From contig JAAFKA010000016.1 in NCBI GenBank assembly GCA_013299115.1, positions 1-64,000 on the forward strand: 64,000 nucleotides of DNA, given 5' to 3'. Source of the stretch: Cytophagales bacterium. Lineage in GTDB: Bacteria > Bacteroidota > Bacteroidia > Cytophagales > Thermoflexibacteraceae. Under the pieces are notes generated by a model. That model was not told where the DNA came from and made no database searches. It worked only from the letters and a program-made list of their open reading frames with translations. This document shows positions 9,439-56,310 of the stretch, in pieces. Within the stretch, counting starts at the first letter, position 1; each line of letters opens with the position of its first letter. The position numbers were made by a program, and so were the translations under genes.

Positions 9439-9575
9439 CATCACACGCTAAAGCGTATGTTACATTCATCACACGCTAAAGCGTATGTTACATTCATCAC
9501 ACGCTAAAGCGTATGCTACATTCATCACACAAAGCGTATGCTACATTCATCACACGCTAAAGCGTATGTTACATT
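9439..9575. repeat. Tandem array of five 28-bp palindromic repeats
   Basis: Units beginning CATCACACGCTAAAGCGTAT start at 9439, 9467, 9495, 9523 and 9548. The fourth lacks 3 nt. Each unit contains the self-complementary ACGCTAAAGCGTA. There are no spacers, so this is not a CRISPR array. It fills the space upstream of the 9,609 gene. The rest of 9,111-9,608 holds only the two repeat types listed just above. Confidence 0.85.
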
Positions 9576-34918: not shown

Positions 34919-35032
34919 TGTAACATACGCTTTAGCGTGTGATTTTTCACTGAATTTACTTTGCAAATCCAGTGAAAAATCACACGATAAAGCGTATGTT
35001 ACAAAAATCACACGCTAAAGTGTATGTTATAT
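34919..35032. repeat. Long hairpin built from CACACGCTAAAGCGTATG units
   Basis: Arms 34,919-34,952 and 34,970-35,003 pair at 33 of 34 positions, each containing one unit plus TTTTTCACTG. A third unit follows to 35,032. It abuts the IS4 right end. Confidence 0.85.
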
Positions 35033-42633: not shown

Positions 42634-44283
42634 ATGACTCGTTTTATGCAAACCAAGAAAACAAACAAAGGAGTAGGTAAACAAACCAATGAAACAGAGG
42701 GCAAAGGAAAGCAAATAGAAAATAAAGATGCCTATTTAGCAAACTTTATCAACTATATGAAAAATCCTTATCACCCCGATTTTCATGCCCCTATTTTGCA
42801 GGCTATAAAAAAAAGTAATTTTAATCAAAACCTTACACCAATACAATTAAAACCTGTTAAGGTGCAAGTTACTGGTATAACACATTTGGTTGAACTTTCA
42901 GAATTAAATTCTCTATTTTTGGGAAAGGAGGGGCAAGAAGTTGATAGTAATTCTATGCTCACAATAGAAACAGACGATAGCATTTGGTCAAGACGTGGAC
43001 CTAATCAAGAAATAGACAAAAATAGACAACAAGATGCAACAGGAATAACAAGGTATTTATGGTATGGAGTTAAAAATATACAGGGTAAAAAAATGTATTT
43101 GAGAGATGAAACCTTTCGCCCCTTGCAAGACCAAAGCCTATTTAGTGATATACACATAGACCCTGCACGTAGAACTCGCAATCCAAATCCTGACCCTGCC
43201 AATCAAACAGAAACACAAAAGTTAGCCAAAAGGCAAACCAAAGCAGCAAGAAATCTAATGTATAACCCTAATGAAACTTTGAATGAGCAATTACGAGCTG
43301 CTGCGATAACTCTAATTGAAAAAATAGAAAATTTAGGAGCAAACAATATGGAGCAAGAGGGGGAACTTGGGAAAACAAAATTACAAACAGCCCTATTTGG
43401 ACGTATTTTGGGTAAAGAAGGTATCATGGCGAAAAAACAACCAGAAGAAGTTATTGCCATTATAAGAAAAATAGCAGAAAAACCAGCCGAAGCTAATGCT
43501 AATGAAAGAATGTTATTGATTGCCTTGATGGGTGACATTGGTGCATTGTATGCAGATACAGGGGCAACAACTGGTGTGGAAAATAGGTCGGAGGAGCAAG
43601 CAAAAACTCTACGTAACTCCTTATTGCCTGAGCATATGAGTGGTGGGCAAGTGAAAGGAAATGGACAAATAGACAAAATCCAAAAATTAGCTGGTTCCAA
43701 AGTTGTTGGACCTAAAAAGAAGGAAGAAAGAAGCCGACCTTGGGAGGAGTTAGTGAGAATTATGGGTACAAATAAGACCAAAAAACTATCATTAATTCCA
43801 CGTACGGGTATTCACAATACAGGTAATGAGATAGATAACGAATTGGGTATTGGCTTAAATCATAGAATCAAACCGACCAAATGGCAAATAGCCCACATGA
43901 ATAAAAACAGAGTTAATGGTATGCAAGAACCACTGGCAGGGCATATGTCGGGTTCTCCTGCCGAAATTTTGCAAGTTTGGGATGCATTGGTTGGAATGCC
44001 CGAAAATGAACAGTATTCTTTGTATGACGACAAGGCAAAAGATGGTCAAGCAATTGACCAGCAATCTCAAGAATACACAGCAAGAGAGGCAAGAGCAGCA
44101 GGGGCAAGTGCTTTTTTGATAGCTGGTGGGTATCATAGTGCAGTGGAGGTGTTGGAAGGAACAAAAACCTATATGGGAGAAAATCCTCGTAAAGGCAAAG
44201 ACTGGGATGCTGGCATGGACTATGGCAATGGAAATGCGACAGACTATACGGAAGAACTGCATAGTAAGTTTACAAAAAAATAA
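42634..44283 (+). CDS. Large orphan hypothetical protein (549 aa)
   Basis: A 549-aa soluble protein with no signal peptide; an ATG 12 nt downstream (MQTKKTNKG) is an equally good start. The N-terminus is polar, lysine-rich and probably disordered. The middle is helical (residues 190-290), and two copies of a HMSG motif (EHMSGGQ and GHMSGSPAEILQVWDAL) frame the C-terminal third. The polar N-terminus and HMSGSP region recall proteins encoded near contractile-injection (eCIS) loci, but none is here. A candidate -7 box TACTTTTG is at 42,589. Function is unknown. Confidence 0.5.
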   Translation: MTRFMQTKKTNKGVGKQTNETEGKGKQIENKDAYLANFINYMKNPYHPDFHAPILQAIKKSNFNQNLTPIQLKPVKVQVTGITHLVELSELNSLFLGKEGQEVDSNSMLTIETDDSIWSRRGPNQEIDKNRQQDATGITRYLWYGVKNIQGKKMYLRDETFRPLQDQSLFSDIHIDPARRTRNPNPDPANQTETQKLAKRQTKAARNLMYNPNETLNEQLRAAAITLIEKIENLGANNMEQEGELGKTKLQTALFGRILGKEGIMAKKQPEEVIAIIRKIAEKPAEANANERMLLIALMGDIGALYADTGATTGVENRSEEQAKTLRNSLLPEHMSGGQVKGNGQIDKIQKLAGSKVVGPKKKEERSRPWEELVRIMGTNKTKKLSLIPRTGIHNTGNEIDNELGIGLNHRIKPTKWQIAHMNKNRVNGMQEPLAGHMSGSPAEILQVWDALVGMPENEQYSLYDDKAKDGQAIDQQSQEYTAREARAAGASAFLIAGGYHSAVEVLEGTKTYMGENPRKGKDWDAGMDYGNGNATDYTEELHSKFTKK

Positions 44284-44309: not shown

Positions 44310-46451
44310 TTAAACAGCTATGCCTATCAGCAACACATCATCAATTTGCTTTAAATCTCCCTGCCAATCGTCAAAAGTTTTGGCAATAATTTCTTTCTGC
44401 TCTTGCATAGGCAAATAAGCTATTTCTACTAATAATTTGCGTAGTCTTGACGACATAAATTTCTTTTTTTGCTCCCCACCAAATTGGTCTTGAAAACCAT
44501 CAGAAAAAAGATACAGCATATAACGATAAGTGGTTGGCAAATCGAGAGATTGATAGCTTTCCATCGTTGTTGGCATTAAGCCTACATTGCCAAAACCATT
44601 GAGTTTATAGTGAAAATTAGCTTTTTTTAGCCCACCAATAGGCACTTTATCTGCCTTAATTTCGGTAAGCAAGGGAAGTTCTGCGGTAGCTTGCTCGTGA
44701 ATAGGTATAATATAAATAGGGTTCATTGCCCCTGCATAAAGAATAATAGGCTTAAAATTTATACTTTCCGACAAATCAGGGTAAACAATAGAAATAATTG
44801 CAATGTCCATACCGTCTGCCAAAGCCTGTTCGGTCTGTAAAAAAGTCTTTTGAAGGGTGTCTTGCAGCTCATTCAAAATCAGATGTGGCTCGTGAATTTC
44901 TCTGTCATGCACAATTTGGTTCAGTATATCGTTGCCTATCATAGTCATAAAAGCACCCGAAACACCATGCCCCGTACAGTCTGCCACCGCTAATATTCTT
45001 TTGTTTCCTTTTTCTGCAAACCAATAAAAATCTCCTGAAACTATATCTCTTGGGCGAAAAAACACAAAACAATCTAAATAGCTACTCAATTTTCTCTCAC
45101 TCGGAATAATAGCTTTTTGTATCCGCAAGGCATAGCTGATAGAACCCACAATGTTTTGGTTTTTCTCCTCTATTTCTTTTTTCTGCTGCTCCACCATGCT
45201 CAGAGTTTGTGCTAATTCTTCTCTTTGTTGAGTAATCTCCTCGTTTTGTGTCGTTATTTCCTCATTTGCATCTTGTAAATGCAAATTAGCCAACTGTATT
45301 TTTTCCCTATTCCTCCAAATCATCACGCCAAAAAATAGACTTAGCAACAATAAAGACAATACCAAATAATTTATCCTTTGTTGAAATTCTTTGCTCTCTT
45401 TTTCTTGGCTAAGGGCTGCATCTTTGAGTGCCATTTCTGCCTTCGTTTCCAAATTATTGATTATCTGCGATTTTTCTACACTAAACAGCGTATCTTCCAA
45501 TAACTCAAATTTTTCGTGATAAAACAATGCCGTATCAAATCCTCCTTTCTGTCTATACGTTTCGTACAAGGTGTGGTATAATTCTTTTTGTTCTGCCAAA
45601 TTTTTCAAATGATTTGCATAAACCAATCCCTCCTGTGCATAGGCAATAGCCTTGTGATACTGCCCTTGTTTGCGATAAACCCTTGCCAAACCATTCAACG
45701 GAAACGACAAACCTCTTTTGTTATTTATCTTTTTACCCAGCGTATAGGCTTGCAAATAATAATCAACAGCCAATTTATAGTTTTTGAGTTCCTCATAAAC
45801 TTTGCCCATATTAGTCAGACTGATGGTCTGCCCTCTTTCATCTTTTATTTCTTTTCTTAGATTTAGGGCTTTTTCTATATAAGACAAGGCTATGCTATCT
45901 TTGTGTTGCGTCAAATAGGTATTGCCTATATTATTTAGGCAAGTTGCAATACCTTGTTTGTCTTGCAGTTGCTCACGAAGAGCCAAACTTTTTTGAAAAT
46001 ATGCCAACGCCTTGTCATATTCAGTTTCATTGTGATAAACATTTGCAATACTGTTCAGATTGGCAGCCACTCCTTCTTTGTAGCCCAGCTGTTCTTGCAC
46101 TGCTATACTTTCTTGAAAAAACACCAAAGCCTGCGGATAATTACCCGTAACATAATAATACAAACCTTTTGCTCTTTTGCCCTCTGCTATACCTTTTTTG
46201 TATTTCAGTTGGGTACTATAGCTAATTGCCAACTCAGCATATTTCAGCGTAGTATCAGGCTTGTTGTTATAAACCAGATAAGCCAATTGGTTCATGGCAT
46301 TGAGGCAAGCCGTATCTTTTTGATACGATTTTTTTTGCATCAACTTTTCAAGTTTCACCACTAAACTATCAACCTCCTTATTTTGCGAATAAGCTCCATT
46401 AGCAACAAAAAAGTATAGACAGAAAACCAACACAGCGAAAATCTTATACAT
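44310..46451 (-). CDS. TPR-repeat protein with SpoIIE-type PP2C phosphatase domain
   Basis: A 713-aa sensor-type protein. Signal peptide to about residue 22, six or seven tetratricopeptide repeats (residues 60-340, for example EYDKALAYFQKSLALREQLQDKQGIATCLNNIGN quoted in part), a membrane helix (YLVLSLLLLSLFFGVMIW), a coiled coil (LHLQDANEEITTQNEEITQQREEL) and a cytoplasmic SpoIIE domain: FFRPRDIVSGDFYWFAEKG, VADCTGHGVSGAFMTMIG and YLFSDGFQDQFGG carry the metal-binding acids. The likely role is dephosphorylation of an anti-anti-sigma-type partner in response to a periplasmic signal. Confidence 0.88.
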   Translation of the reverse strand: MYKIFAVLVFCLYFFVANGAYSQNKEVDSLVVKLEKLMQKKSYQKDTACLNAMNQLAYLVYNNKPDTTLKYAELAISYSTQLKYKKGIAEGKRAKGLYYYVTGNYPQALVFFQESIAVQEQLGYKEGVAANLNSIANVYHNETEYDKALAYFQKSLALREQLQDKQGIATCLNNIGNTYLTQHKDSIALSYIEKALNLRKEIKDERGQTISLTNMGKVYEELKNYKLAVDYYLQAYTLGKKINNKRGLSFPLNGLARVYRKQGQYHKAIAYAQEGLVYANHLKNLAEQKELYHTLYETYRQKGGFDTALFYHEKFELLEDTLFSVEKSQIINNLETKAEMALKDAALSQEKESKEFQQRINYLVLSLLLLSLFFGVMIWRNREKIQLANLHLQDANEEITTQNEEITQQREELAQTLSMVEQQKKEIEEKNQNIVGSISYALRIQKAIIPSERKLSSYLDCFVFFRPRDIVSGDFYWFAEKGNKRILAVADCTGHGVSGAFMTMIGNDILNQIVHDREIHEPHLILNELQDTLQKTFLQTEQALADGMDIAIISIVYPDLSESINFKPIILYAGAMNPIYIIPIHEQATAELPLLTEIKADKVPIGGLKKANFHYKLNGFGNVGLMPTTMESYQSLDLPTTYRYMLYLFSDGFQDQFGGEQKKKFMSSRLRKLLVEIAYLPMQEQKEIIAKTFDDWQGDLKQIDDVLLIGIAV

Positions 46452-46599
46452 AACAGATTTTTGGGGTTACTTGGAAAGTTGAGAGTAAAAACACACAAAA
46501 TATTTATAACACCAAAAGTAATAAAATTTAACAAAAATCATTCTATATATAGAAAACTTAAATTTTTGTATTAATTTTTTCTTTCTCATTAATTTTTTG

Positions 46600-46958
46600 T
46601 ATCTTTGTAATGGTCAGCAAAGACCATAAAAATCCGTGTTAGCTACGAGAGTGCAATGCGACCAACGGCAAGACAGCGGCGTGATTAGCTGCGGAAAGCA
46701 ATGCAACCAACGGCATACAGTGGCGTGATTAGCTGCGGAAAGCAATGCAACCAACGGCAGACAGTGGCGTGATTAGCTACGGAAAGCAATGCAACCAACG
46801 GCATACAGTGGCGTGATTAGCTGCGGAAAGCAATGCAACCAACGGCATACAGTGGCGTGATTAGCTGCGGAAAGCAATGCAACCAACGGCATACAGTGGC
46901 GTATTCTCTACGTACAGAGGAAGAAAGCATTTGCAGCAATGTAAATGCTTTTCTTTTT
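46600..46958 (+). ncRNA. Candidate noncoding RNA with six 44-nt tandem repeats
   Basis: TATCTTTG at 46,600-46,607 fits the -7 box. A small GGTCAGCAAAGACC hairpin follows, then six repeat units: the GCAATGC landmark starts at 46,653, 46,698, 46,742, 46,786, 46,830 and 46,874, spaced 45, 44, 44, 44, 44. The unit reads GATTAGCTGCGGAAAGCAAT, then GCAACCAACGGCATACAGTG and GCGT. The array ends at a terminator (AAGCATTT, 46,925-46,932, with AAATGCTT, 46,943-46,950, plus a T-run). A period of 44 is not a multiple of 3, so it cannot encode a repeating peptide. Each unit can form ATGC-aaccaacg-GCAT. Function is unknown. Confidence 0.55.
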
Positions 46959-46989
46959 GGCTTTGCAAAGCTAATTCTTTATTGTTTTA

Positions 46990-47109
46990 GTTGTCCGACA
47001 ATTTTTGTGGAAACGTAGGGCTTTGATTTATCAAAGTTCCTTTGTGGGTAGAGCATTTGATAAATCATAAGCCTACATTATTCTCATTCCACAAAAATTG
47101 TCGGACAAC
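46990..47109. repeat. Nested double hairpin, 21-bp perfect outer arms
   Basis: GTTGTCCGACAATTTTTGTGG (46,990-47,010) and its exact complement (47,089-47,109) enclose a second hairpin with GTAGG...GATTTATCAAA and its inverted copy ending CCTAC. It sits between the tandem-repeat RNA and rimM. Confidence 0.85.
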
Positions 47110-47174
47110 CATTGTTTTTTACTTAAAATAGTAGAAAAGTAGCAAAAAAATCTCTTCTTTTTCAATTTTCTGTT

Positions 47175-47182
47175 TACTTTTG
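47175..47182 (+). promoter_or_regulatory. Candidate -7 box for rimM
   Basis: TACTTTTG matches TAnnTTTG 20 nt before the ATG; the -33 region is only T-rich. Confidence 0.4.
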
Positions 47183-47201
47183 CAAAATTTATAGATACAA
47201 A

Positions 47202-47747
47202 ATGACAAAAGACGAATGTTATGAAGTGGGCAAAGTAGTAAAGCCACATGGTTTGAAAGGCGAAATACAACTCTTGCTCGATGTAGATTATCCAGAAGAC
47301 TACGAGGATATGGAGTCGGTATTTGTAGAAATCAAAGGCGAATTAGTGCCTTATTTCGTGGAGCAAATCAAAATTACAACCAACATGGTCATCGTTAAGT
47401 TTGAAGGTATAGGTAATGTGGAGGCTGCCCTCAAACTCAAAAATGCTAAACTCTACTTGCCCGAAGACCAACTGCCAGAAACCGAAGAAGATAGCTATTA
47501 TTTTCACGAATTGATAGGCTTTGAGGTGAAAGACCACCAACAAGGCATATTAGGCAAAGTAATCAATGTGTTTAGTTTTCCTGCTCAAAGTCTGTTGGCA
47601 ATAGCCTACAAAGGCAAAGAGGTTCTAATACCGATGGCAGACCAGATAATGAAAAAAGTGGACAAAGAAAAGAAAACCATAGCCGTAGAACTCCCCGAAG
47701 GGCTGTTGGAAATTTATACAGAGGAGGAAAAAGATACGGCATTGTAA
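47202..47747 (+). CDS. rimM: Ribosome maturation factor RimM
   Basis: A 181-aa RimM, which helps assemble the head of the 30S subunit through S19. The N-terminal RimM domain starts YEVGKVVKPHGLKGEIQLLLD, and the C-terminal PRC-barrel has YYFHELIGFEV, LGKVINVFSFPAQSLLAIAYKGKEVLIPMADQI and VELPEGLLEIY. In many genomes rimM lies between rpsP and trmD; here rpsP is not upstream and an L31 gene follows. Confidence 0.93.
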   Translation: MTKDECYEVGKVVKPHGLKGEIQLLLDVDYPEDYEDMESVFVEIKGELVPYFVEQIKITTNMVIVKFEGIGNVEAALKLKNAKLYLPEDQLPETEEDSYYFHELIGFEVKDHQQGILGKVINVFSFPAQSLLAIAYKGKEVLIPMADQIMKKVDKEKKTIAVELPEGLLEIYTEEEKDTAL

Positions 47748-48250: not shown

Positions 48251-48790
48251 TTGCAAGCACCCACTTATTATACAACCTATTCAGGCAAGTTGCCTGTGTT
48301 TCGGCACCCAAAATTTGTTATCAAACAATCTATTGATTTTGAGGGAGTTAGCTATTCACATTATTACGATTGGCTGAGGCAAAGTGAAACCTCTTTGGCA
48401 TTTTCGCCACTTACACACACCCATACCTTACGCCTGACGAGTAAGCACCTCATCATGCAAGACCCCCATAAAAAATTGGCATTTCCGTTGCAAAAAGTTC
48501 AAAAAGTGAGCATAGCTTTCAAAAGATTGCTTTTTCCATTGATTAGCGGTGGCATTTCCACGCCTCTGTTTGGTGTAGCCCTCTGGAACCAATTAATTAG
48601 TTTTTGGTTTGGTATTGGCGTAGTATTTATTGGTTTGTCTTTGTTATATTATGGTTGGTTAGGCACACACCAAGTAAGCATAGATTTGTCGCAAGAAACT
48701 ATCAATTATTTTACAGACCATAAAACCCCCGAATTAGAAAGTTTAGTCAAGCAAACCAATGAGTTGGTAAAGCAAAGAAAAGAACATTAG
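48251..48790 (+). CDS. Small membrane protein, unknown, TTG start
   Basis: A 179-aa protein whose frame opens at a TTG (48,251), 21 nt after a TATCTTTG -7 box (48,223-48,230); the first ATG would remove half of the protein, so the TTG is likely real. The N-terminal half is soluble and beta-rich (YYDWLRQSETSLAFSPLTHTHTLRL). Two hydrophobic helices (residues 95-140) are followed by a charged C-terminal tail. No family recognised. Confidence 0.5.
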   Translation: MQAPTYYTTYSGKLPVFRHPKFVIKQSIDFEGVSYSHYYDWLRQSETSLAFSPLTHTHTLRLTSKHLIMQDPHKKLAFPLQKVQKVSIAFKRLLFPLISGGISTPLFGVALWNQLISFWFGIGVVFIGLSLLYYGWLGTHQVSIDLSQETINYFTDHKTPELESLVKQTNELVKQRKEH

Positions 48791-56200: not shown

Positions 56201-56310
56201 TGTGCTTTGGGTTTCTCAAAACCCGAAGTGTTTTTACGCTGTGCTTTGGGTTTCTCAAAACCCAAAGTGTTTTTACACTGTGCTTTGGGTTTCTCAAAAC
56301 CCAAAGTATT
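56201..56310. repeat. Three 39-nt tandem GGGTTTCTCAAAACCC hairpin units after gyrB
   Basis: Units start at 56,201, 56,240 and 56,279, each with CTTTGGGTTTCTCAAAACCC and a GAAGTGTTTTTAC-type spacer. The second half of the stem is CCCGAAG in the first unit and CCCAAAG in the others. They lie 13 nt past the gyrB stop codon and may act as its terminator. Confidence 0.85.

Follow-up and report, generated by a model that had tools for sequence, protein, structure and literature searches.

We identified a tandem array of six 44-nt units in the interval between rimM and a divergently oriented gene of this Cytophagales genome. With modest confidence, we regard the locus as an sRNA-like transcription unit restricted to its lineage, with a body that expanded recently and repeats that are probably near-neutral. 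Coordinates refer to the window, the whole stretch of 64,000 nt that was analysed, and the features of the locus are as follows.

44310-46451, minus strand: divergent upstream gene for a TPR and SpoIIE-phosphatase-like protein (ORF list, Pfam)
46600-46607, plus strand: -7 box TATCTTTG, which fits TAnnTTTG, with a predicted +1 near 46612
46610-46627, plus strand: 5' hairpin from the fold, with a 6-bp stem (2 bp shorter if +1 is 46612)
46639-46902, plus strand: tandem array of six 44-nt units (TRF, CAATGC spacing, alignment)
46639-46682, plus strand: unit 1, a divergent copy with 78-80% identity to the other units
46683-46902, plus strand: units 2-6, five near-identical units of exactly 44 nt
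46904-46921, plus strand: short hairpin after the array (minimum-energy fold)
about 46922-46958, plus strand: intrinsic terminator, 13-bp stem and T-rich tail (fold, consensus scan)
46990-47109, no strand assigned: MITE-like palindrome whose inverted ends match perfectly over 23 bp, a dispersed repeat outside the array unit
47175-47182, plus strand: separate -7-like box TACTTTTG before rimM (sequence)
47202-47747, plus strand: downstream gene rimM (ORF list, Pfam)

TRF reported the array at 46653-46902 with a period of 44, 5.7 copies, 96% matches and a score of 456. A first-pass annotation had described six near-identical units with a first spacing of 45. The spacing was correct: CAATGC recurs at intervals of 45, 44, 44, 44 and 44 nt, because in unit 1 the shared CAATGC is followed by one additional base. 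Near-identity holds for units 2-6, of which 2, 5 and 6 are the same and 3 and 4 each differ by one substitution, but not for unit 1. Unit 1 is nevertheless clearly homologous to the others, since its alignment score was reached by none of 5000 letter shuffles. The units are contiguous and head-to-tail without spacers, as in a minisatellite or VNTR (units of 10-100 nt); the absence of unique spacers ruled out a CRISPR array. A diverged edge copy next to homogeneous inner copies is a product of slippage or unequal recombination. This arrangement fits a young minisatellite and led us to propose an sRNA-like unit with a recently expanded body. A 44-nt segment inside the transcript would have multiplied recently via replication slippage or unequal recombination; unit 1 would be an older copy, diverged but still in place, and the inner copies would be young or homogenised. 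Recent expansion or strong constraint had been offered as the two explanations of the uniform units, and the pattern agrees with expansion, while constraint is unsupported, with no convincing homologue.

The G+C content of the array is 0.52-0.54, against 0.38 for the window, a level reached by 0.2% of 290-nt segments, the array's own among them. Such richness is odd for neutral intergenic DNA here and could reflect foreign origin or constraint. Inverted repeats of at least 10 nt were absent from the units, and no long perfect inverted pair enclosing the array was found. Imperfect A+T-rich inverted pairs do span it (e.g., 24 nt at 71%, 16 nt at 75%, 14 nt at 79% and 11 nt at 91%), and these are probably due to chance. 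It was also observed that 16 nt of every unit from 2 to 6 (46684-46875) are 81% complementary to 46960-46975, directly past the terminator tail.

The signals around the array point to transcription. In Flavobacterium psychrophilum, according to excerpts of PMC9723704, the TAnnTTTG -7 box lies at -12 to -5, and the +1 was therefore predicted near 46612. The -7 box proposed in the first-pass annotation fits this consensus but lacks a -33 TTG at the usual distance; the only TTGs in 46556-46600 lie 31 and 0 nt from the box. A sigma-70 scan, which has no model of the Bacteroidota box, found no promoter before the array and three sites elsewhere in 46400-47210 against 2.5 expected. The genome appears to use the TAnnTTTG box, because it is enriched before ORFs: the 100 nt upstream contain it on the coding strand in 75 of 219 cases and on the opposite strand in 36 of 219. 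The 5' hairpin folds with a z of -6.05 and the terminator with a z of -4.2, and in both cases none of 200 shuffles was as good. The terminator, also proposed earlier, is thus borne out by its fold, although a consensus scan of the array stretch was less remarkable (one found against 0.4 expected in shuffles). Its T-run is on the right side only, so that it is directional. Box, 5' hairpin, array and terminator are collinear and rightward, in line with the single direction claimed for them. Plus-strand ORFs opposite the TPR gene were taken as spurious, and the nearest other upstream plus-strand ORF ends at 44283. The simplest role for the terminator is therefore to end a transcript that passes through the array. 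Judged from sequence, with collinear signals and a low chance rate, an independent rightward noncoding transcript of about 345 nt (predicted 46612-46958) with its own promoter and terminator is likely, as had been suggested. A small stand-alone unit from about 46612 to 46958 would then produce an sRNA-like RNA of roughly that length.

The interval between the two flanking ORFs is indeed 750 bp, but part of it is taken up by the MITE-like palindrome. The palindrome gave 90 match rows in its own genome, many of them both strands of one place, and has at least 19 further places that are 79-93% identical (best 40 of 202 candidates scored); we accepted it as a dispersed mobile element. The array itself is present at a single place in its own genome, which ruled it out as a dispersed mobile element. 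The best named relative of the RimM protein is from a Microscillaceae bacterium (54% identity). Farther out, the ORFs 42634-44283 (549 aa) and 48251-48790 (179 aa) had no Pfam match at E 0.001.

The foremost alternative, which we consider unlikely, is that the array is an untranscribed neutral minisatellite and that the box and terminator are accidental or drive weak background transcription. We compared the locus with a 464-kb genome sample consisting of the window and 400 kb more, with gene lists that are simple ORF calls and not annotation. Tandem arrays are frequent, in keeping with this alternative: TRF gave 26 rows with a period of at least 18 and at least 2.5 copies, some of them coding or overlapping. 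Box-to-terminator pairs are not rare in this genome either, as 27 further candidate rows were found in noncoding DNA of the sample, some of which overlap and some of which may be gene leaders or ends. The missing -33 element and the terminator scan point the same way. On the other hand, 60 nt of noncoding strand would contain 0.097 boxes on average, and the expected number of terminators of -15 kcal/mol or better is 0.037; the joint chance is about 0.004 per strand if the two are independent, and the folds of the terminator and the 5' hairpin (z of -4.2 and about -6) also speak against accident. Thirteen arrays, corresponding to 15 of the 26 TRF rows and chosen by eye as probably noncoding, were compared in a post hoc test for a box within 60 nt before and a terminator within 80 nt after. 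The other 11 rows were excluded as coding-looking (L228, two rows; L231:499; L231:3745; L234:10741; L240:13001, two rows; L242:10370) or A+T-rich (L235:712, L235:718, L239:4826). A box on some strand was present at three of the 13, and a box with a strong terminator on one strand only at the array described here and at none of the other 12, where the next best hairpin was -12.5 kcal/mol.

Several other repeats were noted in the sample. L240:14350-15474 holds a 422-nt unit in 2.7 copies, with box-to-terminator candidates on both strands (two plus, three minus). Window 9439-9575 and 34975-35029, together with L237:14658-14749, are tandem arrays on near-copies of the palindrome-like CACACGCTAAAGCGTATGTTAC. 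Window 56201-56307, L234:2425-2605 and L234:3608-3803 carry tandem hairpins of the type GGTTTCTCAAAACC, which recur in the genome.

The position of the array between the divergent gene and rimM raises another explanation, namely a DNA-level element in which tandem protein sites control the TPR/SpoIIE gene or rimM. Direct repeats can be operator arrays. The DNA helix has 10.5 bp per turn, so that a 44-nt period does not correspond to an integral number of turns, which argues weakly against such an element. The lack of an inverted repeat of 10 nt or more within a unit is a similarly weak objection, as is distance: about 188 bp separate the divergent start codon from the beginning of the array, and about 300 bp lie between the array's end and rimM, a gene that carries a box of its own. 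We give this explanation little credence.

The first-pass annotation had also supposed that six equal modules might bind several copies of a protein or small RNA, or act as a sponge. CsrB and RsmZ are protein-titrating RNAs with repeated GGA motifs in stable hairpin loops, and a functional multivalent RNA would likewise bind one protein or small RNA per unit and titrate its partner as a whole. The array resembles them in that one RNA has several copies of a short module; the near-identity of the inner units, the G+C-rich body and the anatomy of a discrete transcription unit are also consistent with such a function. GGA occurs once in each of units 2-6; when folded, units 2 and 3 place it in a small weak loop, whereas unit 4 does not. 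However, it is absent from unit 1, and the modules, unlike those of CsrB and RsmZ, form no strong hairpins and repeat directly every 44 nt. Folding one unit, as had been recommended, gave nothing better than shuffles, and the same was true of the units and the whole array on either strand. In the genome, whose completeness is estimated at 99.99%, there was no match to CsrA (PF02599; control positive in 3 of 14 named genomes) and none to RRM, Hfq or ProQ (controls positive in 2, 5 and 1 of the 14, respectively).

Pairing with RNA did not favour the multivalent model either. One unit plus 20 nt of the next was used as a query against 301 translation-start regions, with 30 shuffled versions for comparison. 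The best pairing was -36.8 (mean of shuffled best -35.0, sd 3.6) and the mean -14.5 (shuffled -14.2, sd 0.5), so that neither was above shuffles. The TPR gene ranked 11th and rimM 251st among the 301, and the TPR gene was not singled out by any control. A search for complementary sequences elsewhere in the genome, another recommendation, was equally negative: antisense BLAST matches to the repeat were at best at E 0.9-1.7. Two of the three matches that were checked (L002, L005, L006) would pair with the strand opposite an ORF, and the third would pair with an ORF near its 3' end. With no homologue to show conservation in addition, a binding or sponge function is not upheld, and we think a multivalent RNA of the CsrB/RsmZ kind rather improbable. 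A lineage-specific six-module RNA that titrates a novel RNA-binding protein or small RNA, its modules having just been multiplied, seems to us more improbable again. No test gave evidence that the repeats as such are functional. In the sRNA-like unit that we favour, the repeats would most likely be near-neutral passengers or a transcript length polymorphism, not six evolved binding modules.

Short reading frames in the repeats were also considered. It had been argued that a 44-nt period excludes a repeating peptide, and this is true of one continuous frame, but 23-aa frames recur in units 2-4. Units 2, 3 and 4 share an ATG position (46701, 46745 and 46789), and from each of these ATGs runs a 23-aa frame that starts with MQPTA; the three frames are almost alike in sequence. 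One transcript might thus yield several copies of a short peptide. This is the least credible of the explanations: a 44-nt repeat that has one ATG in each unit will always contain such frames, the substitutions among units 2-4 alter residues, and the DNA has no homologue. In addition, the ATGs of the remaining units open different frames, of 10 aa in unit 1 and of 42 and 28 aa to the end of the translated stretch in units 5 and 6 (the unit 5 frame is 61 aa in the ORF list).

The array appears to be restricted to its own lineage. We searched 98 genomes (its own and 97 relatives) with a cut-off of E 0.01 and at most the seven best candidates scored. The sole match among the relatives was in G050, 28 nt at 89% and E 0.003 for one genome with 98 searched; it is intergenic, and its surroundings are unlike the array. 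Used as a query, the G050 segment gave short matches in eight other genomes of 79, all to query positions 115-164, and the shared 28 nt (query positions 22-49) was matched in none of the 79. The G050 match is plausibly due to chance. In a sample of 296 genomes of the phylum, the own genome alone matched at E 0.001 (at most the two best candidates scored per genome). An 18-nt core pattern had one match each in eight genomes besides the own (G050 included) among 390 of the order, and its reversed control matched in three of the 390; the three genome samples (98, 296 and 390) overlap in part. Among the matches listed, the flanks of the core do not extend the unit, and a conserved core shared with other genomes was rejected on these flanks and the isolation of the G050 match. 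No second strain of the species was found. The one same-genus genome, G001, had no array match and no detected rimM match, and its ribosomal L31 gene region is only 76% identical. The rimM loci of 26 relatives, covered with about 1.5 kb of flank, had no comparable array upstream of the gene outside ORFs.

In viral_contigs, the 22-nt unit pattern had no match, and flanks of the other matches (first rows and best 8 of at least 129) do not extend the unit. Phages gave no match to the array, and the plasmid search gave only 21-nt matches at E 4, found in two E. coli records, so that a plasmid or phage origin was rejected. Rfam had no match in the window at the gathering threshold and eight sub-threshold matches in 46400-47210, all to the right of the repeat units. 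Absence from relatives fits a functional RNA of recent origin as well as a neutral one. Taking the locus together, we infer transcription, expansion by slippage and near-neutrality.

Neither the array nor its unit was found described in the portion of the open-licence PMC literature that was covered. The closest published analogue found appears to be BrickBuilt of Porphyromonas gingivalis, which in excerpts of PMC4596501 has a 23-nt unit, 19 copies in ATCC 33277 and small inverted-repeat ends, and whose segments showed promoter activity measured in E. coli. Both are intergenic tandem repeats of Bacteroidota without spacers and with leader and tail segments. According to the same excerpts, BrickBuilt is multi-copy, whereas the array is at one place with a 44-nt unit; unlike BrickBuilt, it has no clear inverted ends, and the adjoining MITE at 46990-47109 does not enclose it. 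With canonical Bacteroidota sRNAs, as presented in parts of PMC7366714 and PMC9723704, the locus shares the TAnnTTTG box, a separate intergenic unit and an intrinsic terminator; in contrast to them, its expression is predicted. The parts of these two papers make no mention of a tandem-repeat sRNA, and 'tandem' occurs 0 times in PMC7366714.

At present, the locus stands as a clearly bounded sRNA candidate whose repeats have an ordinary explanation. If it is transcribed, it would be a clean natural example of tandem repeat expansion within a small RNA gene, and it would allow repeat number to be tested against RNA stability or activity in an organism whose genome yielded no match to the usual RNA chaperones.
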